From Saururus chinensis (lineage: Eukaryota > Streptophyta > Magnoliopsida > Piperales > Saururaceae): a stretch of DNA of 64,000 nt. The stretch spans positions 40,719,178 through 40,783,177 of the forward strand of contig CP141143.1 in assembly GCA_035235625.1 (NCBI GenBank), written 5' to 3'. The translations under genes were made by a program, and so were the position numbers. Shown one piece after another: positions 10,861-36,624 of the stretch; position 1 is the first letter of the stretch; every line of letters begins with the position of its first letter. Under the pieces are notes generated by a model. It worked only from the letters and a program-made list of their open reading frames with translations. It was not told the origin of the DNA and made no database searches.

Positions 10861-11123
10861 GTTGGAAGAAAGGGAAAGGAAATACTGGAATTTCATTAAG
10901 CATAACTGTCCAAGGAGGGAGACGACCCTCTTATGGGGAGTCGTGCCCCCCCTCACATGGGGAGTCGTGCCACTAGTTGGCCCGGATCACCCGTGGTCCA
11001 ATAGTGTTCCTATTACAATTTAATAACAAGATGCAAATAATAGTCAACTGCTAACATAAGGGAAACTAGCCTAAATAACAGAAATAAACCACTGAGTCGA
11101 GCTTAGTGCACCCGTGCACAACA
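10861..11123 (-). mobile_element. Fragment of a 3' LTR of a Reina-like chromovirus
   Basis: On the minus strand the sequence after the purine-rich TGGAAGTGTGGTGGAG (11124-11139) starts TGTTGTGCACGGG and runs through GCTTAATGAAATTCCAGTAT, a U5-like phrase. It directly follows the 3' end of the coding part to its right, in the order expected for a minus-strand element. The 3' limit is uncertain. Fossil. Confidence 0.5.
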
Positions 11124-11153
11124 CTCCACCACACTTCCACCCAAGCCTTGTCC

Positions 11154-11420
11154 TCAAGGCGACCATGAAGGGTACCGGAGAAGAAACTCATCCTCAGACA
11201 ACCACGTAGCATCCTCAAGTGGCTGGCCTTGCCAAGAAACTAAAACCTCCGTGGTAATACAACTAGAGCGGCGGACACGGCACTTATCAAGCCACACTGC
11301 AGGAATGGGGTCAGAAGAAGCCACTGAACACATCAATGGAAGAGGTGGAGCATCCACAGCCAGGGAGGGGTCACCGATGCAATGATGCAGCCTAGAAACA
11401 TGAAAAACAAGATGGACCAT
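11154..11420 (-). pseudogene. Chromodomain part of the Reina-like element
   Basis: The translation contains VSWQGQPLEDATWLSEDEFL followed by LRYPSWSP. This matches the W..P...ATWE...E....YP pattern of chromovirus chromodomains. It is the last coding part before the polypurine tract and LTR. Fossil. Confidence 0.75.
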
Positions 11421-11534
11421 CGAACCCGGTGGTAGAGTGAGGCGGTAGGCAACCGATCCAATGTGCTCTTTGACAACATAGGGACCATGAAATCAGGGGG
11501 CCAGCTTAGAGTGCTCTAGCTGGAACAAGGAGGT

Positions 11535-12446
11535 CTAGCGCTGAGGAAGAACAGAGACATAAATCAAGTCTCCCATGGCAAACTCGCACTCTATGTGATG
11601 GCTATCATAAATCTGCTTCATTCTGTTAAGAGCCTCAAACAGGTTCGCCTTAAGCTGGCGAAGAACCTCATCCCGAGTCTGAAGCATGTAGTCAACCTCG
11701 GCCACTGAGGACCGATGGGGAACATAGGAGAGCACTATAGGGGGTGGCTGCCCATATAGTACCTCAAAAGGAGTAAACCCAGCGCGAGCGTGATAAGCAG
11801 TATTATAAGACCACTCAGCCCACAGAAGGAGCTAAAGCCAACGACGGGGCTGAGACATAGTAAAACAGCGTAGGTACTGCTCCAAATAGCGGTTGACGAC
11901 CTCAGTTTGCCCATCAGTCTACGGGTGATAGGCATTACTCATGTACAAAGAAGTGCCGTGTAAAGTGAAGAACTCCTACCAAAACTGAGAGATAAAAATC
12001 CTGTCGTGATCAGAAATGATAGTGCGAGGCATACTGTGCAATTTGGCCACCTCACGAACGTATAGTTCTGCCACAGACTTGGCGGTGTAGAGATGACCGA
12101 GAGCACTAAAGTGGGCATATTTGGACAGCTGATCCACTACCACCATGATCACCGACTTGCCTTGGATCAACGGCAAGGCCTCCACAAAGTCCATAGAAAC
12201 ATCATCCGAAACCTTATCTGGAATGGGCAATGGCTGAAGTAACCCGACAGGAGAGGTGGTGGCGGACTTGGCACACTGACAGACATCACAAGCGGCCACA
12301 TAAGCAGTCACCATGTGATGTACGCCCTGCCACAAGAAGCTCTGACTGACCCGTTTATAGGTGTGGAGGGCACCTTCATGACCTGCCAAGGGAGAAGCAT
12401 GGAAGTGAGCTATGATACGCTGGCGCAGGTCGGTAACCTCAAGCAC
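11535..12446 (-). pseudogene. Integrase part of the Reina-like element
   Basis: The N-terminal zinc-binding region is seen around 12446-12250 (HFHASPLAGHEGALHTYKRV, then CDVCQCAK). The catalytic core begins with SMDFVEALPLIQGKSVIMVV. The C-terminal part lies at 11735-11535 (ANLFEALNRMKQIYDSHHIE and GDLIYVSVLPQR). Domain order and sequences are those of Ty3/gypsy integrases. Fossil, broken. Confidence 0.8.
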
Positions 12447-12461
12447 CCAAAGACGGTCTTT

Positions 12462-13945
12462 CTAGAAGAGAAGGCCATCCTTCCAGGCAAAGCAAGGGCG
12501 TGCTGATGGATCAGACTGGAGGGCCGCAATCAATGTGGTGGTCGGGGGATCATCTTGATATGCCTGTTTCAATTCAACAAGGAATGGATAAACCGGACCG
12601 AAAATAGCCAAACACGAACCTGGAGTGGGGCAGCGAGATAGTGTGTCGGCCACGGTGTTGTCAGATCCCTTCTTGTACACAACCTCATAGTCATAGCCCA
12701 AGAGCCTGCTGACCCACAGCTGCTGCGCGTGAGTGGACACCCGCTGTTCGAGAAAATACTTGAGCGGTTGGTGGTCAGTGCGAATGAGAAACTGCCGGCC
12801 CAGCAAATAAGGGCACCATTTGTCAACCGCGAGAACAATGGCCAGCATCTCTTTCTCGTAGACAGAGAGGGACAGGGAGTGGCCAGCCAAAGCCTTGCTG
12901 AAGTAGGCAATAGGACACTCCTCCTGAAGTAGTATTGCCCCCAGCCCGGCATCAAAGCATCAGTCTCAACCACAAATGACCGGCTGAAATCAGGAAGAAT
13001 CAAAACAGGGGTGGTCGCCATAGCTTGCTTCAACTCCTCAAAGGTTGCCTGGGCAGTGTCAGACCAATGAAAGGCACCTTTCTGTAACAGCTGAGTAAGA
13101 GGGCGAGCAATCTCGCCATAGCGGGGAATAAAGCGCCAATAGTAGCCAGTCAGGCCAAGGAAGCCTCCCAGCGCCAAGGCACAAGTAGGGGATGGCCAAG
13201 ACAGCATGGCGGTCACCTTAGAGGGGTCTGTAGTCATGCCGTCACGAGAGATAATATGACCCAAATATTCCACTTGTGGGCTGCCAAATGAACACTTCGA
13301 TCGTTTAAGAAACAATGAATTAGCTTTCAGGATATCAAAGATAGACCTGAGATGCTCCAAGTGGTCGCCCCATGACTTGCTATAGACAAGTATATCATCG
13401 AAGAACACCAAAATGAAGCGGTGGAGGAAGGGCCGAAAGTGATCATTCATAAGGCTCTAAAATGTAGAGGGAGCATTCGTGAGGCCAAACGGCATAACCA
13501 GGAACTCGAAATGACCATCATGAGTGCGGAAGGCAGTCTTGGGCACATCGGTGGGCTGCATTCGGATCTGATGATAACCTGAATGAAGGTCAAGTTTACT
13601 GAATACAGTAGCACCGGACAGAAGCTCCTCCACCACCTGCATAGGGTATTTGTCCTTCACTGTGATAGCATTCAATGCCCAGTAATCAACACAGAAACGC
13701 CAAGTACCATCTTTCTTACAAACCAGCATCACTGGGGAAGAGAAGGAGCTCGTGCTAAGCCGAATGATACCAGAATGAAGCATGTCCGCCACTAGACGTT
13801 CGATTTCAGCCTTCTGAATGTATGGATAACGATATGGGCGGACATTGGCTGGAGAAGCACCTGGAATGATAGGGATAAAATGGTCATGTGCCCGCACCGG
13901 AGGAAGGCCCTTTGATTCAGCAAACACCGTACCATACTCCGCCAA
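12462..13945 (-). pseudogene. Reverse transcriptase and RNase H part of the Reina-like element
   Basis: Reverse transcriptase hallmarks include [25 protein letters not shown] and DDILVYSKS. RNase H is marked by YEKEMLAIVLAVDKW and LIRTDHQPLKYFLEQ. All are Ty3/gypsy-type. Fossil; several interruptions spread the domain over more than one frame. Confidence 0.85.
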
Positions 13946-14049
13946 GAGGTCAAGAAGATCCTACGGCAAGTCATCTTGCACAACGTCCACTGAGGCCCGC
14001 TGCTGGAGGAGTAGTCCCTGCGATGCGAACCGGAATAGGACCCCATCGC

Positions 14050-14331
14050 CTACGCAGAAAGGAGAGTGCCTGGTTGAGAGCCTTGGATGTGCACCCGCTG
14101 TCCGTTCAGTGTGAAATCCATCACCAGGTCCTTAAAGTTCCAGAGAACGTCCCCAAGCTCTTGGAGCCACTGCACCCCTAACACCACGTCCGCCCCCTTC
14201 GTTGGAAGTAAGAAGTGATCGGTCACAAATGTGTGGCCCTGAATGGAGAGTGCGGCCTGGGTACAGACGTCAGAACTTCGGAGGTGCTTGCCATCACCAA
14301 TCAAGACATCAAAGGGTGTCGAGTCAGACAC
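14050..14331 (-). pseudogene. Aspartic-protease part of the Reina-like element
   Basis: The translation holds HTFVTDHFLLPTKGADVVLG followed by VQWLQELGDVLWNFKDL. This is the C-terminal half of the retropepsin-like domain found between gag and reverse transcriptase in plant gypsy elements. Fossil. Confidence 0.65.
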
Positions 14332-14393
14332 AAAGCAACCTAGCTGCTAAGCAACTTTATCGTTGATGAAGTTGTGAGTAGACCCACTGTTAA

Positions 14394-15681
14394 TCAGAAT
14401 GGCAACCTGTTGCCACTTGAGGTAACCCTGTACTCGCATGGTGCCGGAGTGAATGCCCCTGAAAAAGCATGCACAGAAATCTCCGGCAGTGTATCGGTAG
14501 GGTATGAAGAATCTGGCCCCTCCATCACCTCTGCCTCCTCATCGATCTCCTCCACTAAGAGACTACCCTTGACGGAACAACGGTGCTCTAGGATGAACTT
14601 CTCATTGCAGCGAAAACAAAGCCCTTTTGAATGATGTTCCTCCATTTGCGCCGGAGTGAGACGGCAGACAATCGGGCCAGTCTGAGGGGGCGCTTGGCCA
14701 GCGCGGCCAGCCACTAGCTGCTGGCTGGAGTGGCAAGAGGGGATGCGGTCACAGCAGCCCGAGGGAAGGGTCCGAGCCTGCCCCCATGCCTCTGTCTAGC
14801 CAATTTCTCTTCCTTGATGTGTGCATAACGCACAACATCCCGCATGCTGAAACAGGGAAAATGGCGCATCTCCTCAGAAATCTTTGGTTTGAGCCCTCGC
14901 TTGAACCTGCCCACCAAGGCGGCCACTGGCCAATCAAGGAGGCGGTTAGCCACCTTCATGAACTCCATGTAGTATGCTCTCATGGTGGATATCTGGCGTA
15001 GGGAGGAGAGCATTTCGTTGAAGTCTTGGAACTCATTCGGGCCGAACTGGACGCACAATTCATCGGAGAAGGCGGTCCAAGTGGGGTAGCGCACCTCCTT
15101 CTCAAAGCTCTGAAACCATACCGAGGCATCCCCATCTAGGTGGAAAGCCACTATTCGTAGTCGTTCAGCCTCCGACTGCGTCCCCTGGTAGGCAAAAAAC
15201 TTCTCTGCCTTGTACAGCCACTCAATGGGGTCATCGTCCCCGTTATAGTGCGGGAACTATAGGTGGGCCAAACAGGGTTCCGCCCCACCATGGTGTGCTC
15301 CGCTGTGTCCTGGGTACTCCTCCCAGTCATCCTCCATCTCTTGGTACAAGTTTCGGGGAGGTGACGCCATTGGGGCATTTTCCCGAACACCTAGTGTGCC
15401 TCACGAGTCCCAGGCTTAGGCCTCCCATTCATGGCCTCGTCGACAGTGCCAAAGCGTACACCATCCCGGGCAAAGCGCGTATCGTGGTCTACCGGCGGTG
15501 GGAAGTCAGAGTGGAGAGGTTCTGGAGCCTGGGACGGACCCCCCTTCTCCATGGAAGCTGGCAGCTTGGACAGAAGAGGTGGTGCACACTCTACCTGAAG
15601 CTGGGCAATGGCCAATCCCAAAGCATCGATCTTGGCTACTCCCATGCTCAGAGCCTTGATCTCCGCCACAAGTTGTGCCAT
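14394..15681 (-). pseudogene. Gag part of the Reina-like element
   Basis: Starting near 15681 (MAQLVAEIKALSMGVAKID), the translation passes through a gag core (AFHLDGDASVWFQSFEKEV, FNEMLSSLRQ, GRFKRGLKPKISEEM). It then reaches a zinc-knuckle region with CFRCNEKFILEHRC. Retrotrans_gag plus a CX2C knuckle is typical of plant gypsy nucleocapsids. Fossil, broken. Confidence 0.8.
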
Positions 15682-15751: not shown

Positions 15752-18700
15752 CATTTGATTTGTTATTATGAACGTAACAAATGAATGGTAAGCCTCTTTA
15801 AACTTCAAACGATCTTACAATTTGTGAACATTCTTAAGGAACTTCAGTTTTATTCGATTAAAATAATATAAATTGACCAAAAGTAGTCCAATTCACTCAT
15901 CATTTATGGCATTTAATTCATTCTGATGAGCTTAGCAAATAAGTACATATTTATATATAATGACTAAATACACATTTGTGATGAGCTTTGGTGCTTTATT
16001 ATAAATCTAGTTAAACGAATACATTCATATAAGTTAAGAAAGAATGGTCAAATTATGGTATCACTTTTTCCATTTGTATGATTATTGTGCATAACAAATG
16101 ATAGGGAAGTCTCTTAAAGATTTAAACGATATAAAGATTTGTACACATTCTTATGGAAATTCATTTCATATCGATTAAAAGGATATTATAACTTGACCAA
16201 TAGTTGTCTGATTGGTTTGTTGTTTAGTTCGTTTGATTAATCCTTACAAACTTAGAAAATGAGTATGTATTTATTTAATATAATTCAATACACATTTGTC
16301 ACAAGCCTTGGTACTTTGATCTAAATCAATTTAGGCGAATGAAATTATAGAAATTAAGGAAGAACATTCAAATTGTGGTATCACTTTCTCCATTTAATTC
16401 GTTATTTTGAAAGTAACAAATGAATGGGTGGTCTCTTTAAACTTAAAACGATATAATGATTTATGTACATTCTTAACAAACTTTCATTTTAATCGATTAA
16501 AAGGATATAACTTGACTAAAAGAATTTTGATTGGTTCATTATTTAGTTCATTTTATTCATTCTTATGAACTTAGCAAATGAGTACGTATTTATTTAAAAT
16601 AATTAAATACACATTTGCGATGAGCTTCGGAGCTTTGTTATAAAACTAGTTAAGCGAACGAAATCACATTAAGTAATGAAAGAACGGTCAAATTATGGCA
16701 TTACTTTGCCCATTTGATTAGCTTTGTGCACATTCATAAGGAACTTTAGCATTAATCAATTATGGGATATAACTTAACCAAAAGTTGTCCGATGGGTTCA
16801 TCATTTAGTGTGTTCGATTCATTCTTACAAACTTAACAAATGTATACGTATTTATTTAAAATGATTAAATAAACATTCGTGGAAAGCTTTGGTGTTATGT
16901 TCTAAATCTAGTTAAACAAATAAAATAATATAAGTAAAGAAAGGAAGACAAAATTGTTCTATTACTTTATCCATTTGATTTGTCATTGCGAATGTAACAT
17001 ATGAATATGAGGTCTATTTAAACTTTAAAGGATATAACAATTTCTCCACATTCTTCACGAACTTCTGTTTTAGTTGATTTCTCAACATTCTTCACGAACT
17101 TCGATTCATTCATCATTTAGTGCATTTGATTAATTCTTATGAAATTAACAAAGGAGTACATATTTATTTCAAATAATTAAATACACATTCGTGATGAGCT
17201 TTTGTGCTTTGTATTGAATCTAGTTGAGAGAATGAAATCATATACATTAAGGAAGAACAATCAAATTAGGGCATCACTTTCTCCATTTGATTTGTTATTA
17301 CAAACATAACAATTGTATAGGAGATCTCTTTCAACTTTAGGCGATATAACGATTTGTGCATATTCCTAACATACTTTGTTTTAATTGATTAAAAAAATAT
17401 AACTTCACCAAAAGTTGTCTGATTGATTCGTATTTTAGTGCATTTATTTCATTCTAATGAACTTAGAAAATGAGTACATATTTATTTATAATAATTAAAT
17501 ATACATTTGTGACGAGCTTCGATACTTAATTTTAAATCTATTTAAGCAAATGAAATCATATATGTTAAAGAAGAATGACCAAATTGTACAATTACTTTGT
17601 CAATTTTATTCATTATTATGAAAGTAAGAAATGAATGGGAGGTCATGTGCACATTCTTAATGAACTTCGGTTTCAATCGACTGAAAGGATATAACCGATC
17701 AAAAGTTTTCTAAATTGTTCGTCATCTTGTACTTTGATTCATTCATATGAAGATATCAAATGAGTACGTATTTATTGAAAGTAATTAAATAAACATTTGT
17801 GATGAGCTTTTGTGTTTTGTTTTAAATCTAGTTAAGTGATTTAAATCATATATGTTAAGGAAGAACGACCAAAATGTACTATTACTTAGTCAATTTAATT
17901 CGTCATTACGAAAGTAACAAACTAATGAGAGGTTACTTTAAATTTTAAATGATATAATGATTTATACACATTCTCAATGAACTTCAGTTTTAATCGATTA
18001 AAAGGATATAACTTAGCCAAAAGTTATATGAGTTGTTCGTCATTTTTGTATTTGATTCATTCTTACGAACATAATAAATGAGTATGTATTTATTTAAAAC
18101 AATTAAATACGAATTTGTGACAAGCTTTTGTGCTTTGTTTAAAATCTAGTTAAGTGAAAGAAATCATATAAGTTAAGGAAGAATGGTCAAATTGTAGTAT
18201 AACTATGTTCATTTGATTTCTTATTTCAAATGTAATAAACGAATGAGTGATCTCTTTTAACTTTAAATGATAAAACAATTCATACACATTCTTAACAAAC
18301 TTCAGTTTTAATCGATTAAAAGTATATAACTCAACCAAATGTGGTCAAATTGCTACATTGTTTAGTGTAATTAATACATTCTTACAAACTTAGTAAATTG
18401 AGTATTTGTTTATTTATAATATTTAAGTACACATTCACGAAAAGTTTATGTGCTTTGTTCAAAATCTAGTTAAGCAAATAAAATTAAATAAGTTAAGGTA
18501 GAATGGTCAAATTGTGGTATAACTTTGTCCATTTGATCCTTATTACAAAGGTAAAAACTAAATGGGATGCCTCTATAAACATTACATTATATAATGATTT
18601 GTGTGCATTCTTAATAAACTTTGATTTTAATCGATTAAAAGGATATAACTTTACCAAAATTGGTCTGAATTGTCTGTTGATTATTGCATTTGATTCATTC

Positions 18701-21700
18701 TTATGAATTTAAAAATTGAGTGCGTATATATTTAAAACAAATAAATACACATTTGTAACAAGCATTAGTGCTTTGTTTTAAATCTAGTAAAAGGAATGAA
18801 ATCATATAAGTTAAGGAAGAATGGACAAATTGTAGTATCACTTTTTTGTGTTATTCATTATTATGAATGTAACAAATAAATGAGATATCTCTTTTAACTT
18901 TAAATAATATAATGATTTGTGCACATTCTTAATAAATTTTAATTTTAATCGATTTAAAGGATATAACTTGGCCAATAGTGGTCTGATTAGTTCGTCATTT
19001 AGTCCATTTGATTTATTGTTATGAGCTTATCAAATCCATATGTATTTATTTAAAATAATTAAATACACATTCGTGACAAGCTTTGACGCTTTGTTCTAAA
19101 TCTTTAACTTTAAACGATACAATGATTTGTGCACATTCTTAATAAACTTCAATTTTAATCGATTTAAAGGATATAACTTGGCCAATAGTGGTCTGATTAG
19201 TTTGTCATTTAGTCCATTTGATTTATTATTATGAGCTTATCAAATCCATATGTATTTATTTAAAATAATTAAATACACATTCGTGACAAGCTTTGATGCT
19301 TTGTTCTAAATCTAGTTAAGCGAATGAAATAATATAAATTAAGGAAGAAACGACCAAATTCTGCTATTACTTTGTCAATTTGCTTCGTCATTACAAATGT
19401 AACTAATGAATAGGATATCTCTTTAAACTTCAAATGGTATAACAATTTGTGCACATTCTTAATGAATTTCAGTTTTAATCGATTAAAAGGATATCACTTG
19501 AGCAAAAATGGTTTAATTGGTTTGTCATTTAGTGCATTTGATTCATTCTTACAAACTTGGAAAATGAGTATGCATATATTTAAAATAATTAAATACACAT
19601 TTGTGACAAGCTGTGGTGCTTTGTTCTAAATTTAGTTACGTAAGTGAAATCTCAAAAGGAAGAATGGTCAAGTTGTGGTATCACTTTGTCTATTTGATTT
19701 ATTATTACAAACGAAAATTTGGAGGTGTCTTTAAACTTTGAATAATATAATGACTCATGTGCATTCTTAACGAACTTGGATTTTAATTGATTAAAGAGAT
19801 ATAACTTGATAAAAATTAGTCAGATTGGTTCATCGTTTAGTGTGTTTGATTCATTCTTACAAACTTCGCAATTAAGTATGTATTTATTTAAAATAATTAT
19901 CTATATACTCAAGACAAGCTTTCGTGCTTTGTTCTAAATCAAGTTAAGCAAATAAAATTACATAAGTTAGGGAAGAATTGTCAAATTGTGGTATAACTTT
20001 GTCCATTTGATTCATTATTCGGAACAAAATAAATGATTGGGTGGTCTATTTAAAGTTCAAATAATCTAATAATTTATTCACATTATTGACAAACTTCAAT
20101 TTTAATCAATTAAAAGGGTCTAGACTTGACCAATATTAGTCCTAATAGTTTGTCATTTAGAGTGTTCAATTCATTCTTATGAATATAGAAAATGAGTACA
20201 TATTTATATAAGACAATTAACACCACATTCGTGACGAGGTTCAGTGTTTTGTTCTAAATCTAGTGAAACAAATTAAATCATATAAGTTAAGGAAAAACTG
20301 TCAAATTGTGGTATCGCTTTGTCCATTTGAGTCATTATTACGAACATAACAAATGAATGAGAGATCTCTTTTAACTTTATATAATATAATGATTTGTGCA
20401 CAATCTTTACCAGCTTCAGTTTTAATAGATTAAAAGGATATAACTTTACAAAAATGGGTCCGATTGGTTCATCATTTAGTGTGTATGATTTATTCTTACA
20501 AACATAGAAAATAAAAATATATTTATTTAAAATAATTAAATAAACAAACCTCATGAGCTTTGGGCTTTGTTCTAAATCAAGTTAAGCAAATAAAATAAAA
20601 TAAGTTAATAAAGAACGGTCAAATTGAGTTATTTTTTTTTCCATTTGATTTGTCATTATGAACATAACAAATAAATGGGAGGTCTTTTTATACTTGAAAT
20701 GATATAACAATTTGTGCACTTTTTTAATAAACTTCGATTTTAATCTATTAAAAGGATATAACCTAAGAAAAAGTGGTCCAATTGGTTTGTCATTTAGTGC
20801 ATTTGATGTATTCTTAGAATATAGCAAATGAGTATGTATTTAATTAAAACAATTCAATAGATATTCGTGATGAGCTTTGGTGCTTTGTTCTAAATCTAGT
20901 GGAGTGAATGAAGTCATATAAGTTAAGGAATAACGGTCAAATTGTAGTATCACTTTATCCATTTGATGCGTTATTTTGAACGTAACAATTAATGAGAGAT
21001 CTCTTTTTTAACTTTAAATGATATTATGAGTCGTGCATATTCTTGATAAACTTCAATTTAATTGATTAAAACAATATAACTCTACAAAATTGGTCTAATT
21101 GGTTCATCAATTTATTGCATTTATTTCATTCTTACTAACATGGGAAATGAGCTCATTTTTATTTAAAATAATTAAATAATATTTGTAACAAGCATTGGTG
21201 CTTTGTTCTAAATATAATTAAGTGAATGAAATGATACAAGTTAAGGAAAAATGGCCAAATTGTGATATTACTTTATTAGTTTGATTTGTCATTACAAACG
21301 TAAAAAATGAATAAGATATCTCTATAAACTTAAAATTATATAACAATTTTTGCACATTCTTAACAAACTTCAGCATGAATCGATTAAAAGGTTATATAAC
21401 TTGACCAAAAATGGTCCAATTGGTTCATCATTTAATGCATTTGATTCATTCTTATGAATTTTTGGCAAATGAGTACATATTTATTTAAAATAATTAAATA
21501 CATAATTGTGATGAGCTATAGTGTTTTATTCTAAATCCAGTGAAGCGAATAAAATCATATCAGTTAAGAAAGAATGGTCAAATTGTGATATCACTTTGTC
21601 CATTGATTTGCTATTATGAATATTACAAAGGAGGTCTTTTTAAACATTAAACAATATAATGATTTGTGCATATTTATAATGAACTTTGATTTTAATCAAT

Positions 21701-24700
21701 TAAAAAGATATTTAACTATAAGTGCTATGATTGGTTAGTCATTTAGCATATTTGATTCCTTCTTATGAACATCATAAATAAGTACTTATTTATTTAAAAC
21801 AATTATATAAGCATTCCTCATGAGCTTTGGTACTTTGTTTAAAATAGAGTTAAGAAGATGAAATAGTATAAGTTAAGGAAGAACAACCAAATGGTTCAAT
21901 TACTTTGTACATTTGATTCATCATTATGAACGTAACACATGAATGAGAGGTCTCTTTATACTTGCATAGATATAATGATTTGTTCATATTCTAAACGAAC
22001 TTTAATTTTAATCAATTAAAAGGATATAACTTGACAAAAAGTGGTTTGAATAATTCATCATTTAGTGCATGTAATGAATTCTTAGAACTTAGCAAATTAG
22101 AAAATATTTATTTAAAACAATTAAATACACATCTATGATAAGCTTTAGTGCTTTGTTCTATATTTAGTTATGCTAATAAAATCATTTAGTTAAGAAAAAA
22201 TTATCAAATTGTAGTATCACTTTGTCCATTTGATTCATCATTACGAACATAACAAATGATTGAGAGATCTCTTTTAACTTTAAACAATATATCAATTTAT
22301 GCAAATTCTTTACAAATTAATAAATTAAATGGATACTAGTTGACAAAAATTGGTTTGATTGGTTCATCATTTCGTGCATTTGATTCTTTCCTACAAATTT
22401 AGCATATGAGTACATATTTATTTAAAATAATTACATAAACATTCCTACGAGCTTTAGTGCTTTGTTCTAAATCAAATTAAGTGAATGAAATAATATAAAT
22501 TAAGGAAGAATAGGCAAACTACGCTATTACATTGTCCATTTGATTTGTTATTACAAACATAATAAATGATTCAGAGATCCCTTTTAACTTTAAATGATAT
22601 AACAATTTATCCATATTCTTAATTGGTTTTAATCTATTGAAGGGATATGGATTGACCAAAAGTGGTCCAATTTGCTTATTGTTTAGTGCTTTGATTGCAT
22701 TCTTACTTAGCAAATGAGTACGTATTTATTTAAAACATATAAATACCAATTCGTGACAAGTTTTCATGTTGTGTTCTAAATCTAGTTAAGTGAATGAAAT
22801 CATATAAGTTATGGAAGAACATTCATATTATGCTATCACTTTGTTCATTTGATTCATTATTCTAGACATAATAAATGAATGGGAGGTCTCTTTGAAATTT
22901 AAAGAATATTATGATTTGTGGACTTTGGTCTTAATCGATTCAAAAGATATAACTTGACAAAAAGTGGTCCAATTAGTTCGTCATTTAATACGTTTGATTC
23001 ATTCTTATAAACTTAGAAAATGAGTTCATATTTATTAAAAATAATTAAATCTACATTCCTAGCGAGCTTTGGTAATGTTTTCTAAATCTAGTTAAGGAAG
23101 AACAATCAAATTGTTAGATCACTTTCTCCAATTGACTTGTTAATACCAACGTAACAAATGGATTAGAGATCTCTTTCAACTTTAAATGATATAATGATTT
23201 GTTCATAAACTTATCAAACTTTGGTTTTAATTGATAAAAGGAGATAACTTAACCAAATGTGGTCCAATTGGTTCATCGTTTAGTTCGTTTAATTCATTCC
23301 TATGAACATAGAAAATGAGTGCTTATTTATTTAAAATATACATTGGTGACGAGCTTCAGTGCTTTGTTCTAAATTTAGTTAAGCGAGTGAAAATATTTAA
23401 GTTAAGGAAGAATGACCAAATTTTATGATTACTTTGTCCATTAGATTCCTCATTACCAACATAACAAATGAATTGGGATCTTATTAAAGTTTAAACAATA
23501 TAACAATTTGTACATATTCTTAATGAAATTTGGTTGTAATCGATTAAAATGATATAATGTGACCAAAATTTCTCCGATTGATTCATCGTTTGGTGAGTTT
23601 GATTCATTCTTATAAACTTTACAAATGAGTATATATTTATTTAAAATAATTAAGTATTCATTCATGAAGAGCTTTGGTACTTTGTTCTAAATCAAGTTAA
23701 GCGAATGAAATCAAATAAGTTAAGAAAGAATGGTTAAATTGTGGTATCACTTTGTCAATTTGATTCTTTATTATAAACATAACAAATGAATAAGTGGTCT
23801 CTTTAAACATTTAATAATATAATGTTTTCTACATATTCTTAAGGAACTCGGTTTTAATGGATTAAAAGGATGTAACTTGACCAAAATTAGTCTAATTAGT
23901 TTGTCTTTTAGTCCATTTGATGCATTCTTACGAACTTAGAAAATGATTACATATTTAATAAAAATAATTAAATCCACATTTGTGATGAGATTTGGTTCTT
24001 TGTTCTAAATCTAGTTAAGCAAATGAAATCATGTAAGTAAAGACAGAATAGCCCAATTGTGGTATCACTTTCTACCTTTGATATATTATTACAAATGTAA
24101 CAAATTAATAGGACTCTTTAACTTTTAAATGATTTAATGATTGGTGCACATTCTTATTTAGGTTTAATTGATTAAAAAATATAAATTGACCAAAGTGGTA
24201 TGATTGGTTCATTGTTTAGTGCGTTTGATGCATTCTTACGAATATTGGAAATTAGTACATATTTATTTAAAATAATTAGATACACATTCATGGTTAGTAT
24301 TAGTGTTTTGTTCTAAATTGAGTTAAGCGAATAAAATCATATCAGTTAAGGAAGAACGATCAAATTGTGGTATCACTTTGTCCATTTGATTCATTATTAT
24401 GAATGTAACAAATGCATGGGAGAACATTTTTGACCTTTAGATAATGTAATAATTTGTGCACATTCTTAACAAACTTTAGTTTTAATTGATTAAAACGATA
24501 TAACTAGACCAAAAGTGGTCTTATTGGTTCGTTGTTTAATTTGTTTGATTCAATTTTACAAACTTAGCAAATGAATATTTATTTATTTAAAATAATTATA
24601 TACATACTTGTGACAAGCTTTGGTGCTTTATTCTAAATCTAGTTAAGCAAATAACAAGTTAAAGAAAAATATCTAAAATGTGCTCTTACTTTGTCTATTT

Positions 24701-27700
24701 GATTTGTCACTATGAATGTAACAAAGTAATGGGAGGTCTATTAAAACTTTAAATGATATAATGATTTGTGCATATTTTTAACGAATTTTTATTTTAGTCG
24801 ATTAAAGCAATATAACTTGAAAAAAAGTGGTCCATTTGGTACATCGTTTAGTGCGTTTAATTCATTCTTTTGAACTTGGCAAATGAGTATGTATTTATTT
24901 AAAATAATTAAACAAATTCCTAGTGAGCTTTGGTTCTTTGTTTTAAATCTAGTTAAGCGAATGAAATCACATAAGTTATGAAAGAGTGGTTATATTGTGG
25001 TATCACTTTGTCTATTTAATTCGTTATTTCAAGCATAACAAATGAATAGGTGGTCTCTATAAACTTTAAATAAAATAATGATTTGTGCACATTCTTTATG
25101 AACTTTGGTTTTAATCGATTAAAAAGTTATAACTTGAAAAAATTTAGTACAATTGGTTCGTTGTTTAGTACATTTGATTTATTCTTATGAATTTAGCAAA
25201 TGAGTTCATATTATTGAAAATAGTTAAATCTACATTCTTACGAGCTTCAATTCTTTAATCTAAATCTATTTAACTGATTTAAATGAACGGTCAAATTGTT
25301 GTATTACTTTATCCATTTAATTCTTTTTTATGAACATAACAAAGGAATAGGATGACCCTTTAAACATTACACAATATAACAATTTTTGCACATTCTTTAC
25401 GAATTTTGGTTTTAATCAATTAAAAGGTTATATAACTTGACCAAAAGTGGTCCAATTGGTTTGTCATTTAGTGCGGTTGATTCTTTCTCGCGAACATCAC
25501 AAATGAGTACGTATTTGTTTAAAACAATTAAATCCACATTCAAGACAAGATGTTGTTCTTTGTTCTTTTGATTCGTAATTATGAACATAACAAATAAATT
25601 GGAGGTCTCTTTATACTTTAAACAATATAAAGATTTATACATATTCTTTAAAACTTCAGTTTTCATAGACTAAATAGATATAACTTGACTGAAAGTGGTC
25701 TAATTGGTTCATTGTTTAGGGCATTTGATTAGTGGTTATGAACTTAGCTAATGAATACATTTTTATTGATAATAATTAATTATACATTTGTGATGAACTT
25801 CGGTTCTTTGTTCTAAAACGAATTAAGAGAATGAAATAATATAAGGAAGAATGACCAAATTGTGCTATTAGTTTGTCCATTTAATTCGTCATTATGAATG
25901 ACACAAATTAATAATGATATATGTGCACATTCTTAATTAACTTTAGTTTTAATCGATTAAAAGGATATAACTTGAAGAAAAGTTGTCTGATTCGTTCGTC
26001 ATTTAGTGCATTTAATTTATTCTTAAGAATATGACAAATGAGTACATATTTTCCTAAAATAATTAAATACAAATTAATGGCGAGCTGTGGTGCTTTGCTC
26101 TAATTCTAGTTAAGCGAATGAAATCACATAAGTTAAGGAATAACATTCTTATTGTGGTATTACTTTGTCCATTTGACTCATTGTTATGAGCATAACAAAT
26201 GAATGAGAGCTCTCTTTAAAATTTAAATAACATAATAATTTTTCACACTCTTAATGAACTTTGGTTTTAATCAATTAAAAATATTAACTTGACAAACTTT
26301 AGTACGATTGGTTCGTCATTTAGTGCATTTGATTCATTCATATGAACTTAGCAAATAAGTTCGTATTTGTTAAAAGTAATTAAATCTACATTTATGATGA
26401 GCCTCAATTCTTTATTCTAAATCTAGTTAACCGAAATAAATTATTTAAGTTAAGAATGAACGGTTAAATTATTTTATCACTTTATCCTTTTAATTCTTTA
26501 TTACGATTGTAACAAATAAATAAGAGGTCTCTTTACATGATATAACAATTTATGCAAATTCTTTACAAATTTTAGTTTTAATTGAATAAAAGGTTATAAC
26601 TTGATGAAATGTGGTCCAATTAGTTCGTTGTTTAGTGCGTTTGATTCATTCTCACGAACTTTGTAAATGAGTACGTATTTTTAAAAAATAATTAAATACA
26701 CATTCAAGAAGAGCTGTTGAGCTTTGTACTAAATCAAGTTAGGTGGCTGAAATAATATAAAGAAGAACGGGCAAATTGTGATATTACTTTGTCCATTTGA
26801 TTCATCATTATGAACATAACAAATGAATGGAAGATCTCCTTATACTTGAAATGATATAACTATTTGTACACATTCTTTATGAACTTTGGTTTTAATAGAT
26901 TAAAATGATATAACTTGACCAAAAGTGGTCTGATTGGTTCAACATTTAGTGCATTCATTAGTTTTTACGAACTTAGCTAATGAGTACATATTTATTTAAA
27001 ATAATTAAATACACATTTGTAACGAGCTTCAGTGCTTCGTTCAAAATCTAGTCAAACAAATGAAATAGTAGAAGGAATAATAGCCAAATTTTGCTATTAC
27101 TTTGTCCATTTGCTTGGCCATTTGAACATAACAAATGAATGGTATGTCTCTTTATACTTTAAACAATATAACTATTTATGAACATTTTTATCTAACTTCA
27201 GTTTTAATCAATCAAATAGATATAAATTGACCAAAAGTGGTCCGATTGGTTCGCCGTTTATTACATTTTATGCATTCCTACAAACTAAGTAAATAAGTAC
27301 GTATTTATTTAAAAAATAAAATACACATTCATAACGAGCTTGTGCACTTTGTTCTAAATCTAGTTAAACAAATGAAATCATATAAGTTAAGAAATAGTGA
27401 TCAAATTATGGTATCACTTTCTCCATTTGATTTGTTATTATAAATGTAATGAATGAATGGGAGAACTCCTTTAATTTTAAACAATATATTGTTTTATGGA
27501 CATTCTTTATGAAATTCGGTTCTTATCGATTAAAAGGATATAACTTGAGCAAAAGGTGTCTAATTGATTCTTCGTTTAGTGCATTTGATGCATTCTTACA
27601 AACTTAGTAAGTGAGTACATATTTATTTAAAACAATTAAATACACATTTGTGAAAAGATTTGGTGCTTTGTTCTAAATCTAGCTAAGTGACTGAAATCAT

Positions 27701-30700
27701 ATAAGTTAAGGAATAATGGTCAAACTATAGCATCACTTTCTCCATTTGATTCATTATTATGAATATAACAAATAATTGAGAGGACTATTTTAATTTTAAA
27801 CAATATAATGATTTGTCCACATTCTTTATGAACTTTGGTTTTAATCGATTATAGGGATATAACTTGACCAAAAACAGTTTGATTGATTCATCATTTAGTG
27901 CATTTGATGCATTCTTACGAACTTAGCTAATGAGTACATATTTATTAAAAATAATTAAATACACATTCGTGACGAACTTTTGTGTTCTGTTCGAAATCTA
28001 ATTAAGCATATGAAATCATATAAGTTATAGATGAACGGTCAAATTATGATATTACTTTGCCCATTTGATTCATCATTACAAACGTAACAAATGATTGACA
28101 AGTCTCTTTTAACTTTAAACGATATAACAATTTGTGCACATTCTTTATAAACTTCGGTTTTAATAAATTAAAAGTACATAACTTGACCAAAATTGGACCA
28201 ATTCGTTTATCATTTATTGCATTTGATTTATTCTAATACACTTAGCAAATGAGTACGTATTTATTCTAAATTAAGTTAAGCGAATGAAATAATATAAGTT
28301 AAGGAAGAAAGGCCAAATTGTGCTATTACTTTCCCTATTTGATTCAAAATTATGAACATAACAAATGGGTGTGAGGCCTCTTTAAACTTTAAACGATATA
28401 ACGATTTGTACACGTTCCTAACAAACTTTGGTTTTGATTGATTAAAAGGGTATAAATTGACCAAAATTGGTCCAATTGGTTCATCATTTAGTGCATTTGA
28501 TGCATTTTTAAGAACTTTGAAAATGAGTACATATTTGATTAAAATAATTAAATATATATTTTGACGAACTTTGGTACTTTGTTATAAATCTAGTTAAGCA
28601 GATGAAACCATATCAGCTAAGGAATAACGACTAAATTGTGATATTACTTATTCCATTTGATTCACCATTACAAATGTAACAAATGAATGGGAGGTCTCTT
28701 TGTACTTTAAAAAAATAACGATTTGTACACATTCTTAACACACTTCAGTTTAATCAATGAAAAAGATTCAACCTCACAAAAATGGTCTTATTAGTTCATC
28801 GTTTGTTGCGTTCGATGCATTCTTACAAACTTACCAATGAGTACATATTTATTAAAAAAAATTAAATCAACATTCGAGATGAGCTTTGGTGCATTGTTCT
28901 AAATCCTATCAAAATAATTAAATCATATAAGTTAAGGAAGAATGGTAAAGTTGTGGTGAATAAATGAGAGGACTTTTTAAACTTTAAATAATATGATGAA
29001 TTATACACATTCTTAAATAACTTCAGTTTTAATCGATTAAAAAGATATAACTTGACCAAAAGTAGTTCGATTAGTTTGTCCTTTAGTGTGTTTAATACAT
29101 TCTTATGAACTTAGCAAATTAGTGCGTATTTATTTTAAATAATTAAATACACATTCTTTTCTATCATTGGTGCTTTGTTGTAAATCTAGCTAAGCAAATG
29201 AAATCGTATAAGTTATGGAAGAATGGTCAAATTGTATTATCACTCTGCCTATTTAAATCATTATTACGAACGTAAAAAATGAATAATAGGTCTCTTTAAA
29301 CTTTAAATGATATAGCAATTTGTGCAAATTCTTATTGAACTTCGGTTTTAACTGATTAAAAGGACAACTTGACCAAATGTGGTCAGATTGGTTCATCATT
29401 TAGTACATTTGATACATTCTTATGAATTTAACAAACAAGTAAATATTTATTTAAAATAATTAAATACCCATTCATAACGAGATTTGGTGCTTTGTTCAAA
29501 ATCTAGTTACGTGATTGAAATCATATAAGTTAAGAAATTGTCAAATTGTGGCATCACTTTGTGATTTATTATTACGAACGTAACAAATGAATAGGAGGTA
29601 TCTTTAAACTTTAAATCATGTAATGATTTGTGGACAATTTTAACAAACTTCAGTCTTAATCGATTAAAAAGATAAAACTTAACCAAAAGTTGTCTGATTC
29701 GTTCGTTGTTTATTCTATTTGATTCATTCTTATGAACTTAGCAAATGAGTACGTATTTATTTAAAATATTTAAATACACATCCGTGACGAGCTTTGGTGC
29801 TATGTTGAAAATCAAGTTAAACAAATGATATCACATAAGGCATGGAAGAATGGTCAAATTGTAATACTACATTGTCAATTTGATTCATTATTATGAACAT
29901 AATAAATGAATGGGAGATCTATTTTAACTTTAATCCATATAAAAATTTATGCATATTCTTAATGATTCAATCTTATGAACTTATCAAATGAGCATGTATT
30001 TATTTAAAATAATTAAATACAATTTGTGATTAGCTTTGGTGCTTTGTTTTTAAATTTAGATAAGCAAATGAAATAATGCAAGTTAAGAAACAAGAGCCAA
30101 ATTGTGCTTTCACTTTATCCATTTAATTCGTCATTACCAACATAACAAATGAATGGGAGGTCTCTTTAAACTTTAAAAGAAATATTCATTTGTGCACATT
30201 CTTAACTAACTTCAGTTTTAATAAAAAAATATAACTTGGCCAAAAGTGATTCGATAGATTCATCCTTTTGTATGTTTGAAAAATTCTTACGAACTTAGCA
30301 AATGAGTACGTATTTATTTAAAATAATTAAATACACATTTGTGACAAGCTTTGGTCCTTTTTTAGAAATCTAGTTAAGTGAAAAGTGGTCAAATTGTAGT
30401 ATCACTTTGTACATTTGATTCATTATTACAAACAGACAAATGAATGGAAGGTCTCTTTAAACATTGAATGATATAGCAGTATGATAACATTCTTAACGTA
30501 CATTGGTTTTAATCAATTGAAAGGAAATAACTTGACCAAAAGTGGTATAAATAATTTACCATTTAGTGCATTTGATTCATTCTAACGAACCTAGCGAATG
30601 AGCATGCATTTAATTAAAATAATTAAATACACATTCGTGACGACCTTTGGTGCTCTATTTTAAATTTAGTTGAGCGAATAAAATCTTATAAGTTAATGGG

Positions 30701-31243
30701 GAACATGCAAATTGTGGTATCACATAGGCAATTTGATTTGTTATTACAGACATAACAAAGAATTAAGATTTCTCTTTAAACTTTAAATGATATAACTATT
30801 TGTGCAATTTCTTAACAAACTTCAGCTTTAATAGATTAAAAGGATATAACTAAAAAAAGTGGTCTGATTAGTTCATAGTTTAGTGTGTTTGATGCATTCT
30901 TATAAACTTACTAAATAACTATTTATTTATTTAAAATAATTAAATACACATTGTGTTATAGCTTTGTGCATTTGATTCAGTATTACAAACGTAATAAATG
31001 AATGTGAGGTCTCTTTAAACTTTAAACATTCTTACCGAATATTAGTATTAATTGATTGAAAGAATATAACTTGATGAAAAGTTGTCTGATTGGTTTGTCA
31101 TTTTGTGGGTTTTATGCATTCTTCAAAACATAGCAAATTTGTATGTATTTATTTAAAACAATTTAACACACATTTGTGACAATCTTTGGTGCTTTATTTT
31201 AAATTTACTTAAGTGAATAAAATCATATAAGTTAAGGAAGAAT
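15752..31243 (+). repeat. 318-bp satellite array, block 3 (main forward array, 15.5 kb)
   Basis: About 48 diverged monomers in uninterrupted tandem. The phrase GGATATAACTTGACC recurs near 18004, 18322, 18640 and 18960, about 318 bp apart. Each monomer contains two related half-units sharing ATTTGATTC, TTACGAAC and CAAATGA. The half-units are about 157-161 bp apart, for example ATTTGATCC at 18531 and ATTTGATTC at 18688. Monomers differ by many substitutions and small indels, so this is not a freshly homogenised array. No genes are seen. Minus-strand frames of 60-97 codons recur because the same monomer segment is AT-rich and stop-poor. Confidence 0.95.
18894..19313 (+). repeat. Recent 210-bp duplication of a shortened satellite monomer
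   Basis: Two nearly identical 210-bp copies (18894-19103 and 19104-19313) both carry TTGGCCAATAGTGGTCTGAT and the unusual CTTATCAAATCCATATG. The junction joins TTCTAAATCT directly to TTAACTTTAAA, omitting about 108 bp of the normal 318-bp monomer. The high identity compared with neighbouring monomers marks a late event. Confidence 0.85.
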
Positions 31244-33035
31244 TGTGACACCTGAGGATTTTCCACACATTTACTTTAAAATTTTACTAGAAATATATTT
31301 CAAAACACGAACGTAAATCAAATTAAACAACAAAATTCAAAATGTGTGAAAACAATTTTAGCAAATTAATTCATCACACGACAAAACCAACATTCTCAGG
31401 CTTGACCCAAAATGATGATATAAATCATCCACCTTACGACCAAAACATCTTACTTGACATCATCAAACTGAGCTCCCCATAGTAGATCACTATTATCGCC
31501 CTCTTACTTAATACCTCACTTATTATGCTTACTTTTCACTTCATAGTATGTACATTATGTGTGTACAATTATGCATGCTCTTACTATCTAATAAATCCCA
31601 TAAGGCTCCAAGCCTAAGTCCATTTACTTACCAAACACTCGACGTATGCTCCAAACCGAACCAAACCAATCTACATCTATTGTCTTCTGTCACACACTAA
31701 CGCATCCACATACACATCCAACTCCATACCAAACACTCTATCACCTTTTACCGTTCATCACCCACACGCACAGTTCACATATGTAACTTACTAATAGACT
31801 CACTAGTCATAACTAACACATACGTATTCTACATACATCAACCATACTTAGCACATGTATTACACATACATCAACTATAGTTACAACTCATATGCATGCC
31901 ATATGTATCTAAACATACCATATAATCATGCTTATATGCACCTCATGAAATCCTAGCATGCTACTACTAATTCAAGCATGCTATCATGAAATTATGAATT
32001 CAAAGCTCCTCTACCTCATAATCATTACGTTTGATGGCAAGCAAACGACGGTGGCGGCATTGGTGGCGGAGTTGGTAGTCAAAACCATTGTTAAGTTGAG
32101 AGAACTGCTATCCCAAGGTTTTAGGAAGCGCCAGAACTATTCGCGGCCAAACAGGGGTGAAACATGTCAATGCGGAAAATCCGCGATTGTAACGCCCGAG
32201 ATTTTTCATACATTTTCCTTAAAATTCACGGAAAATTTTTGCAATATAACATCTGTAAATCAGAGGAAAAATAACGAAATCAAAACCTGATAAAACAGTT
32301 TATAATTTAAAACACTAAACATCCATTTTCCATCTAAAGATTTTCATCATAAAGTCAAACATTGTACGGCCAAAGCAAATATCATCAGGCACTACTCGAA
32401 AACACACGTACGAATAAATTGCTATGATCATAGACTTTAAATACAAATCCCTCCTAGGCATCCCTGAGTGCAAGCCCCATAACAATCCATAGACTAATCC
32501 AAATGAAAGTCCAGAACATAAACATTTTAACGTCTCATCTCTCCCAATACATCGAATCGTGGCACAAATAAACTCGCAGTGAGTCAAGCATATACCTGAG
32601 TCAACGGGAATCAATCCACCGCTGAAACGAGCGTCCATCTCCAGGAGCTCTCCGCATAACCTGCAAAACCTCCCGTACAACGGGGCTAAAAAGTAGGGTA
32701 ATGAGTATTTTCATACCCAGTAGGAAAATACCTAGTAGGGGAATCCAAAACAGTGAACTCACTAAGTTCACAAATACATGCATTCATGCAACTCAAACAT
32801 GAAGCAGAAGCATATCAATATCATGCTCATACGCATACAAACATATCAAAAGCACCATCGTGCCAAAGACATACCAAATGCACCATCGTGCCAAAATCAT
32901 ACCAACAAATTAAACTTACACAAACACCCTTATTCAGGGTCTTACAAAATTACTCGTACCATCGTACGCATACTCATACAACATACGCAAACTTGTACGA
33001 CCTTACTCGTACAGCTTACACAAAGTCACACTTAC

Positions 33036-33235
33036 TGTCTTACTCATACTCATACTCTTACAATCATACTCATACACATACTCTTACAGTTGTACTCATA
33101 CACATACTCTTACAGTTGTACTCATACACACACTCTTACAGTCGTACTCATACTCATACGCTTATAGTCGTGCTCATATTCATACGCTTACAGTCGTGCT
33201 CATACTCATACAGTCGTACTCATAATCGTACACAT
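33036..33235. repeat. 26-bp minisatellite within the giant LTR
   Basis: Units of the type CATACACATACTCTTACAGT repeat about eight times with a period near 26 bp. The inverted copy has the same array at 59638-59790. Short Tyr/Thr/His-rich frames arise from it and are not genes. Confidence 0.85.
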
Positions 33236-33479
33236 ATCAATGACCACTTAAGCTCATTACAACTAATAAGCTTGAGCGGCGAAATGGAAAAGATTGCCAC
33301 TAGGGCAACACCTTAAACTCCGGGGATCAACTAGACGCCATGGACTTTTCCGAAGGTAGGGCACACCAATGCTCATGGGGCACTAGATCAAACAGGTAAG
33401 AGTAGATCTATAATACTACTTACCTGAGCGGGCAAACATAAACACCCACACATAAGGGGTCACACAGTTGCCCACCATA

Positions 33480-33720
33480 ATGGGTCTTATAGTGCCATCG
33501 CCACTCTTGGGCAGAAAACATGCAGTGCCACTTGGGTAGAAACATACAGTGCCACTTGGGCAAAAACGTACAGTGCCACTCTTGGGCGAAAACATACAAC
33601 GCTCTCAACAGAGAATCAAACGTCTGGGCTTATACAGCACGCAGACCAAATTAGAAACATACATCGCTCTCAGCAGAGCATCAGATGTCTGGTGCTCTAT
33701 ACAACACATAAACAACATCC
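33480..33720. repeat. GCCACTTGGGC-type and about 66-bp repeats within the giant LTR
   Basis: Four short units containing CAGTGCCACT and TGGGCAAAAAC (about 27-30 bp) are followed by two units of the type CGCTCTCAACAGAGAATCAA with GTCTGG. The inverted copy carries expanded versions at 55461-55950. Confidence 0.75.
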
Positions 33721-34470
33721 CGCAGGATAAACACCATGGCAAGACATGAAAAATGCTCAGCCGACTCATTAGCGGCCAGCTCAAACACAGAACTTAATCC
33801 ATCGAACTCTCAGATCTCAAACTCACAATGCTATCATTAGTTGTGCTTATATTCAAGTTTGAATTAAGTACATTATGCGGTACAATTATGCCAAACAAAC
33901 TCACAGTCCTTGATTGATCAAACTGAAGCTGAGCCCGATCGAAACCCAAGTTCGTTAAGGCAGCAGACTTCACTTACCTATCCACATCATGGACAAAACT
34001 CATCTTACATCAAACCCTTACAGTCTTACATACTTCGCCATCCATCTTATGGCCAAATCATCTTACACTGACATCCTCAAATGAAGCTCCTCAGAGCCAA
34101 CCCAATTGTCGCCCTCTTACTTATATCTCACTTATTATGCTTACTTTTCACTTCATAATCTGTATGTTATGCTTATACAATTATGCACACTCTTACTATC
34201 TCACAATCGCCCAACATACAATCCAACCCAAACCTATCCATTCTAATCCTTGCCCGTCATACTCATATCCTCTGACATCCGTCATACACTTACACATCCA
34301 TATCCAAATCCAGACAAAACCTCTGTCACCTCTTACTGTCCATTGCCCATACCTCTGCCCACATACACTTACACATACCCATAGCATAGTCATATAGTCA
34401 TCATACATACGTATGTATCACACATACGTATAACATACACATAGGGTCATACATACGTAGCTTACAAACA

Positions 34471-34890
34471 TGCTCACTAGCCATCACTAGCACATGCATA
34501 CATACGTCAAACATACACGCTAGCCATCACTAACACATGCATACATACATCAAACATACACGCTAGCCATCACTAGCACATGCACACACATTCATACATA
34601 CTTCAAACATGCACGCTAGACATCACTAGCACATGCATAATACATGCATACTTCAAACATGCACGCTAGCCATTACTAGCACATGCATAATACATGCATA
34701 CTTCAAACATGCACGCTAGCCATCATTAGCACATGCATAATCCAAACATACTTCAAGCATGCACGCTAGCCATTACTAGCACATGCATAATCCATACATA
34801 CTCCAAACATGCACGCTAGCCATCACTAGCACATGCATACATACGTCAACATACACGCTAGCCATCACTAGCACATACTCAATCAGCATA
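34471..34890. repeat. 42-53-bp minisatellite with GCTAG...CTAGC dyad in the giant LTR
   Basis: Nine or ten units begin GCTAGCCATCACTAGCACAT and end CATGCAC, most of them 50 bp long and some 42-43 bp. The start of each unit is a small inverted repeat (GCTAG-CCATCA-CTAGC) that can fold as a hairpin. The array recurs in the inverted copy at about 54430-54770. Confidence 0.9.
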
Positions 34891-35139
34891 CGGAACTTAC
34901 CAACAAACACGCTACTCATCACTAGCATATACTTACATCCAACATACTTACAGCCAACATGCATGTCATATGCATTTCAACATACCATACAATCATGCTC
35001 CATGTACATCATGCAATCGGATCGTTACTTAACATCCAAAGCATGGAATCATACAATCCTAGCATGCTACTACTTATTCAAAGCATGCTATCATGAATTT
35101 ATGAGTTCAAAGCTCCCCTAGCTTGTAATCATGACGTTC

Positions 35140-36624
35140 AATGGCAAGCACACGACGGTGGCGGCGTCGGTAGCAGAGTTGGCGGTCAAAACTGTTGCCT
35201 GGCTGAGAGAGCTGCTGTCTTAAGGATTTTAGGAAGCACCGGAACTAGTCACGGCCAAATGGGGTGTCAGAAGTCAATGCGGCAAAACCCGTGATCCACG
35301 GTGGCACACTAGGGCGGCTGGGAGAAATATCATGCCAACATATGTGGCGGTGCGACCAGAAGTCGATGGTGTACTCACTGAAGATGGGCCGGTGGCTAAG
35401 ACGTGCTCAACTGGCCACAATACGTCGAAATCGGCTATGGACAGCACCCAACGGCAATGATTTCGGTCAACAAAGGCCCACATAAGGGCGGAGAGCGTGG
35501 GGCCACGCTCGAGGATAGAGGAGGGCTATGTGTTAACTCCACTCGGTGGCAAAGCCAACCGATGGTCAGGCGGCGCGAATGCGGCGCCTAAACCCAAAAG
35601 CACATGCATGGCCACATGCACACGCGACCCAAAGGGGTGGGGGAGAGGGCTGAAAGGAGGTGACCCAAGGCCCACAAAAGCCAACAGGGCCAAGGTCCTA
35701 GCTGTGGCCAATCAAAGCGGCGACATCGCCGATAGCCACCCACAACCAAAACCCATGGTGCGGGCGGCTATGCATCTCGCACGGTATAGGGCAAATGGCA
35801 AGTGGCCCATTTTAAGCGAAAGAATAATCGGGCCAAGTGGGGCTAACCCTCACTGTCGCCGATCTGGGGCAAAGCCCATAATGCCAAATGACCCGAAACG
35901 CACCCAAGGCATCTAATTGGGCAGAGCAAGGCAATAGGGGAAAGGCGGGGTCAAAAATGGCAAACTCCTACCGACACCGGGTCGAGGTCGGCTGGACGGA
36001 GTCCTACCAGTGACCGGACGATGATCGGAAACACACCGGCATCCAAAAAATCCCATGGACAATGAGATGGAAATAAAAATAAAGCCCGACCAAAGTGTCG
36101 GTAGCTCACCAAGGAGCGAAGAAAGCATGGCGGCGGCTCTAGCCAGCGCCTATGGGTTCCTAGCGGCCAACTAAACATAAGTCTAGTTGAGAGTGGCCGC
36201 AAACGATGTCAAAATCATACACCCACAGTTCAAAAATGGGAATGGAGAGAAAAACCCGAAAAAAAGGTTCGGTACCTCGTGGAGGAGCGAAGAGGCCGTG
36301 GCGGCAATCATAGCTGGTACCTATGGACTCGTGGCGGTGAGGCAAAGCAGATCGTGATAAGAACCACCAGAATTTGACGACAGAGGAGGGAAAACGGGGT
36401 GACCGGCAATGGGCTCGGGTTTCTCTCCCAACTCATTGGACGTCTGGAAAAAGTTTATGGGCGTCGAAAAGTTACTGGAATTTGATCTTCTGATTGATAC
36501 TTATAATCTTTTCAATTTTTATATCCATGTCCCTAATGTGCGTTAACCTCCCAGTTAAATGTTGTAGCTCCAAAATTTGCGCCATAAGCGTGCAGCGAGG
36601 CCTGCAGCTCTACGGGTAAAAATA
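35140..36624. other. GC-rich non-coding part of the nested giant LTR
   Basis: After the AT-rich minisatellite half, the element becomes GC-rich and CpG-containing. Open frames of up to 139 codons occur on both strands, but the other copies do not keep the same frames, so none is supported as a gene. Near 36130 and 36301 a segment of about 40 bp (GTGGCGGC...TATGG) is duplicated about 171 bp apart. The same duplication is seen in the inverted copy near 52992 and 53163. Confidence 0.6.

Follow-up and report, generated by a model that had tools for sequence, protein, structure and literature searches.

A dimeric 318-bp satellite of Saururus chinensis with alternating, diverged half-units and little-homogenised copies

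A tandem satellite with a 318-bp monomer fills positions 15752-31243 of a 64,000-nucleotide stretch of Saururus chinensis DNA (the window; GenBank assembly GCA_035235625.1, contig CP141143.1, C4:40719178-40783177). The locus raises the question of whether this monomer is a doubled older unit and, if so, what has become of the doubled form. The initial annotation of the window had proposed that each monomer comprises two alignable half-units of about 159 bp, which alternate strictly at about 157 and 161 bp in both forward and reverse arrays. The proposal was followed through the window and the remainder of the genome (516.46 Mb, 11 contigs, C1-C11).

TRF, which had been suggested as a check, found a periodicity of 318-320 bp across the greater part of 15752-31243 (15752-16719, 17650-19103, 19101-25541 and 25924-28279), beside partial-unit rows of 210-281 bp. 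Across the window the large satellite blocks have periods of 310-320 bp, mostly 317-320 bp, with some partial-unit periods. A monomer HMM gave 113 matches in the window, three of them weak and each on the strand opposite a stronger one. The others tile the + strand at 2860-4972, 8012-8939 and 15752-31247 and the − strand at 40040-48974, 51435-52553 and 60748-63972, and the unit is present beyond 15752-31243 as further blocks on both strands (Table 1). Positions 1-158 of the model are the A half and 159-314 the B half, the split point being taken from the half-unit analysis. A search of Rfam gave no match. Partial-unit tandem duplications were seen by TRF at 18893-19313 (210 bp, 96%) and 42173-42594 (220 bp, 91%), neither length being a multiple of the half-unit. 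Outside the satellite, a GGT/GGC-rich repeat at 978-1592 has long open frames on both strands, which are probably an artefact of simple sequence.

Table 1 Features of the 64-kb window (window positions) and satellite zones and in-zone genes on the contigs (Mb).
Feature	Location	Strand	Basis
Dimeric satellite, left block	2853..4972	+	HMM tiling (from 2860)
CACTA-like DNA transposon (presumed class), 3053 bp, in a B half	4973..8025	.	sequence reading
Dimeric satellite, block right of CACTA-like insertion	8012..8939	+	HMM tiling and sequence reading
Ty3/gypsy-type retrotransposon pieces, separate open stretches, between two satellite blocks	9773..15256	−	
Main array, 318-bp dimeric satellite, A/B halves alternating	15752..31247	+	HMM tiling, TRF, half-unit tree, junction reading
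Example monomer; A half about 20001-20158, B half about 20159-20315	20001..20315	+	HMM coordinates; half borders interpolated
LTR-like element TGTAACGCCC..GGGACCTTACA, internal 26- and 50-bp tandem repeats	32187..36742	+	borders by eye
Dimeric satellite, inverted array	40040..48974	−	TRF, HMM tiling
Dimeric satellite, inverted block	51435..52553	−	HMM tiling
Second copy of the same LTR-like family, extra internal sequence, 8185 bp, within inverted satellite	52554..60738	−	
Dimeric satellite, inverted array reaching window end	60748..64000	−	TRF, HMM tiling
Satellite zone C1	34.4-35.3 Mb		
Satellite zone C2	25.3-25.8 Mb		
Satellite zone C3	18.5-19.2 Mb		
Satellite zone C4 (contains window)	about 40.2-47.0 Mb		
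Satellite zone C5	31.4-32.1 Mb		
Satellite zone C6	8.2-10.8 Mb		
Satellite zone C7	26.9-28.1 Mb		
Satellite zone C8	9.5-10.7 Mb		
Satellite zone C9	15.2-18.1 Mb		
Satellite zone C10	5.7-5.9 Mb		
Satellite zone C11	22.9-24.3 Mb		
In-zone gene, NAC	C6 8.59 Mb		
In-zone gene, NAC	C7 27.24 Mb		
In-zone gene, NB-ARC	C4 46.10 Mb		

The consensus sequences of the two halves align locally with a score of 49, well above all of 2000 dinucleotide shuffles (mean 18.0, s.d. 2.7, maximum 33), and the ancestral halves, with CG sites restored, are identical at 103 of 139 aligned positions (74%) and differ in addition by several indels. Among half-unit copies in the window, identity within each half class exceeds that between adjacent half classes (means: A-A 75.4%, B-B 75.4%, A-B 57.0%; the highest A-B value is 0.706). 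A half-unit model built on A and B jointly found 252 matches in the window, 185 of them near full length. These form 184 consecutive pairs, of which 159 are same-strand neighbours, and every one of the 159 alternates (80 AB, 79 BA, no AA or BB); of the other 25 pairs, 23 are separated by too great a distance to count as neighbours and two involve a single spurious + match within a − array. The median start-to-start distances on the + strand, 157 and 159 bp, are close to those first proposed. A looser run over the window that included partial halves gave one BB junction, at 28218-28320. In the tree of window half-units 95 A and 90 B copies are parted without error (support 0.83), in keeping with the two alternating clades that had been predicted. 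The sequence strings quoted in the initial annotation fared less well; they are consensus-like or idealised, three of the nine checked are absent from the window, and CCATTTGATTCGTTATTACG occurs there once, at 61478 on the − strand, outside 15752-31243. With an array composition of about 74% AT, the likeness of the halves could be thought a by-product of base composition, an explanation that is refuted by the shuffling test and by both half-unit trees (that of the window and the wider tree described below, with three errors in 1223 halves) and has a negligible chance of being right.

The same arrangement recurs elsewhere in the genome. The satellite unit was found in 27 of 27 fetched loci (L013-L039; 20 of 10 kb on C1-C4 and seven of 5 kb on C5-C11), a non-random sample picked at motif or BLAST matches. 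When 1223 near-full halves of the window and these loci, on all 11 contigs, were placed in one tree, 622 A separated from 601 B with three misplaced (support 1.0, branch length 0.27). With partial halves included, 1280 of 1311 adjacent same-strand pairs are AB or BA and 31 are AA or BB; the exceptions are dispersed, many are partial units that sit at junctions, and one group lies in a locally rearranged patch (L028). The 318-bp monomer is a doubled unit of about 159 bp with diverged halves, A and B, and, given the alternation of the halves and their separation in the tree, the A-B pair is the repeating unit wherever it was sampled, in the window as well as in each of the 27 loci. As a check for a third half-unit class, a widened motif gave 5916 matches versus 3332 and 1694 for the A and B motifs; the surplus places among the 100 listed resembled A/B variants or recombinants, although this is a weak test.

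The initial annotation had explained the dimer by duplication of a nucleosome-sized repeat, and the dimerisation itself is supported; an earlier homogeneous array of 159-bp monomers may only be supposed. Fusion of two related satellites that had evolved separately, as opposed to tandem duplication within one array, is an improbable origin for the dimer. The 26% of aligned sites at which the ancestral halves differ, together with several indels, speaks for fusion, as does the want of a monomeric array in the sampled loci. Against it, the halves are colinear over their length, as tandem duplication predicts, and no free A or B family occurs in the sample, no A-only or B-only array being present among the 27 loci and the window; neither point is decisive.

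Clustering of 26 loci revealed two main groups of 404 and 173 monomers, which differ at 12 positions, and one outlier locus (L038, 8 monomers). In this sample the smaller subfamily is found on C1-C5. Both subfamilies contain the dimer, so dimerisation is older than either, and the existence of two subfamilies means that amplification was not a single burst.

Searches of the genome with short motifs, allowing at most one mismatch, gave 3332 places for A and 1694 for B, and none for a reversed control. Scaled from the motif match rates of either the window or the full set of sampled loci, the satellite amounts to about 3.2-4.9 Mb, a rough figure because the loci were chosen at such motif matches. 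The complete lists of exact motifs (64 places for A, 47 for B, none for the reversed control) together cover all 11 contigs, C6 being represented solely in the A list. When one zone per contig is drawn from these same exact-motif places and the BLAST places (Table 1), 107 of the 111 exact-motif places fall inside, with outliers on C8, C9 and C10; C10 has just two such places, one of them outside its zone. Arrays out of zone were found at 40.7 (C1), 18.5 (C2), 17.7 (C7), 12.6 (C8), 22.7 (C9), 1.1 (C10) and 18.2 Mb (C11). Clustering in mainly one region per chromosome fits a pericentromeric or centromeric satellite, and it is from this clustering alone that a centromeric position is inferred. 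By eye, three genes lie within the zones among the matches listed (150-odd of 164 NAC; 124 NB-ARC), and proton-pump-like matches lie in zones at C4 41.97, C9 15.63 and C9 17.12 Mb. With a few NAC, NB-ARC and proton-pump-like matches inside the zones, gene content is no proof of a pericentromere. The genome is marked as that of a plant by the 164 matches to the NAM/NAC domain, which is absent from all 14 control genomes, by the NB-ARC genes and by a 127-aa vacuolar proton-pump fragment whose best match in PDB is from Vigna radiata, with visible differences.

Orientation flips within single stretches of 5-10 kb at L016, L021, L028, L031 and L035, as in the window, and inversions inside arrays seem to be common. 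A recent palindromic (mirror) duplication as the source of the inverted arrays in the window was rejected, with mean identities of 0.757 within +, 0.757 within − and 0.753 between strands and a best cross pair of 0.83.

The copies have diverged from each other to a large extent. Mean pairwise identity over 588 near-full monomers is 0.759 (about 76%), and within the 26 arrays with at least four monomers it is 0.75-0.81, short of the high monomer identity expected of a homogenised centromeric satellite; adjacent copies are barely above the mean of their array. Neighbouring copies in the window (distance 1) have an identity of 0.760, copies more than 12 apart one of 0.754. In permutation tests, 8 of 10 arrays showed no significant fall in identity with growing distance and two showed a weak one (L020, p=0.033; L025, p=0.019). 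Consistent with this pattern, 84% of the length of the 1223-half tree is terminal. The copies decay in a star-like manner from one consensus, or from two subfamily consensuses, with little local homogenisation. Recent local duplications are present in the window (18853-19367) and in L032 (C4:40255000-40264999), where one pair is 99% identical within a local higher-order repeat (about 1640 bp) at about 2464-5937; these and the weak declines in L020 and L025 indicate that exchange has not wholly stopped.

Divergence is concentrated at cytosines, those in CG above all. Measured over the 588 monomers from a methylation-aware ancestor, which was inferred from the same copies by our own rule and on which the CG figure leans, it is 41% at CG (36 positions), 25% at CHH (65 positions), 23.5% at CHG (3 positions only) and 8.3% at A/T (210 positions). 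At the 18 ancestral CG sites, CG is kept in 18-40% of copies and is otherwise mostly TG or CA. A comparison free of the rule gave 57% conservation at majority-CG sites in the window versus 86% elsewhere. The loss of CG probably came about through deamination of methylcytosine. Plant substitution rates range from 2.5e-9 to 1.3e-8 per site per year, at which an A/T divergence of 8.3% would correspond, very roughly, to 7-35 million years, a figure that is not relied on here. The idea that the blocks common to A and B (e.g. CATTTG..CAAATG) are under selective constraint was considered and rejected: divergence at A/T positions is 0.081 in shared, 0.088 in differing and 0.097 in unaligned positions, and shared A/T positions versus the rest gave p=0.77 in a Mann-Whitney test. 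Because the shared blocks are without detected constraint, no protein-binding box is claimed.

The arrays look fossil, that is, they look to have decayed independently since an old amplification. The preferred reading, with a probability of roughly 0.8, is of a dimeric satellite of the pericentromeric type which was amplified on all chromosomes, whose homogenisation nearly stopped and which has been decaying in heterochromatin. An ancestral unit of about 159 bp would have doubled, probably by unequal exchange, and its A and B halves would then have diverged. Amplified as a dimer, the satellite may have reached all chromosomes, in two or more waves, after which exchange and conversion would almost have ceased. 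Since then, within methylated heterochromatin, the arrays would have lost CG to deamination and acquired transposon insertions. Judged from sequence, the present role is most likely a passive one, as methylated heterochromatin around (or formerly at) the centromeres, which is the most economical reading because no constraint was detected on the blocks that A and B share; no function tied to the sequence itself was detected. The decay of the arrays, their recurrence throughout the genome and the existence of at least two subfamilies had not featured in the initial annotation.

The assembly could lack younger arrays, and this counts against the fossil reading. Centromere cores are often absent from assemblies, and the satellite might then be an active, CENH3-binding centromere repeat that looks old only because its homogeneous cores are unassembled. 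The concentration in mainly one zone per chromosome would agree with such a repeat, but the 40 copies scored, out of 3596 candidate matches to the consensus, are at most 92% identical to it, and identity within each of six loci taken from consensus-candidate places is only 0.77-0.84, which makes an active role doubtful. A decaying, passive satellite remains the preferred reading. A tentative extension of it, on the unlikely side, is that a genome-wide replacement of centromeres brought homogenisation almost to a halt on all 11 chromosomes during one period and left the former satellite as a datable fossil, in arrays close to ideal star-like decay. If that replacement did occur, the decay of cytosines by sequence context could be read from thousands of nearly independent copies.

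Dimeric satellites of this kind are known. According to the available part of the survey by Melters et al. (2013, PMC4053949), higher-order repeat structure is clear in 76 of 171 species; Sorghum has an AB dimer whose A and B copies form clades of their own, and the 343-bp repeat of New World monkeys is a 171-bp unit in doubled form, its two halves being weakly related. Likened by description and not by sequence, the Saururus satellite resembles those AB dimers (PMC4053949) in having two diverged halves per unit, in the separate clustering of A and B and in the dominance of the doubled unit, and differs in the strong, star-like decay of every array sampled. The satellite is a clean further example of the known AB-dimer type and not a new class, the dimer itself being ordinary. 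In the open-access literature searched, the sole other 318-bp plant satellite found was PpTR-1 of Poa pratensis. PpTR-1, compared by description only, is a tandem repeat that shares the monomer length but is subtelomeric by FISH, and the part of its description available does not mention a half-unit structure (PMC5345224). CANR4 of Rosa, as far as its description was available, resembles the half-unit in having a unit of 158-160 bp and two variant clades and is pericentromeric; unlike the present satellite it is monomeric, its clades are closer (about 89% identical, with little sequence change across the genus) and x=7, versus 11 chromosomes here (PMC7262465). The CANR4 dodecamer motif given in that source has no match in the ancestral satellite sequence below 3 mismatches of 12 (PMC7262465). 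What the Saururus case adds is a clean dimeric satellite that occurs on all the chromosomes of a plant and is unusual in the near-independent decay of its copies. Its thousands of little-homogenised copies of one ancestor naturally record how cytosine-biased mutation varies with context, and provide a test case for the fate of a satellite after losing, or never having had, centromere activity.

Transposable elements lie in and beside the arrays of the window. The element at 4973-8025, which we take to be CACTA-like, has the ends CAATACAAC..GTTGTAGTA, a target-site duplication CTA (4970-4972 and 8026-8028), TTAGCGACGC-type subterminal repeats and a GA-rich interior; by eye, the satellite unit resumes in phase past it. 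The Ty3/gypsy pieces encode gag, RT, RNase H, integrase and an SH3-like domain. The LTR-like copy at 52554-60738 is flanked by a 5-bp target-site duplication AATTA (52549-52553 and 60739-60743). Since this copy and the CACTA-like element sit inside satellite units with target-site duplications, both insertions postdate the array. That order makes it very improbable that the tandem repeat was derived from, and spread within, a transposon, even though the arrays have LTR-like elements as neighbours, one of which begins exactly at the right end of the main array at about 31244, and the two LTR-like copies (32187-36742 and 52554-60738; n=2) share one orientation relative to the satellite. The LTR-like element at 32187-36742 is apparently nested in a related element at about 31244-38655. 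The family has TG..CA ends and is unusually long, about 4.5 kb without the extra sequence. Within the second copy, positions 56888-58555 are CT/GA-rich and resemble the inner part of the CACTA-like element (4973-8025), and are perhaps a relative of that element nested in the LTR-like one.
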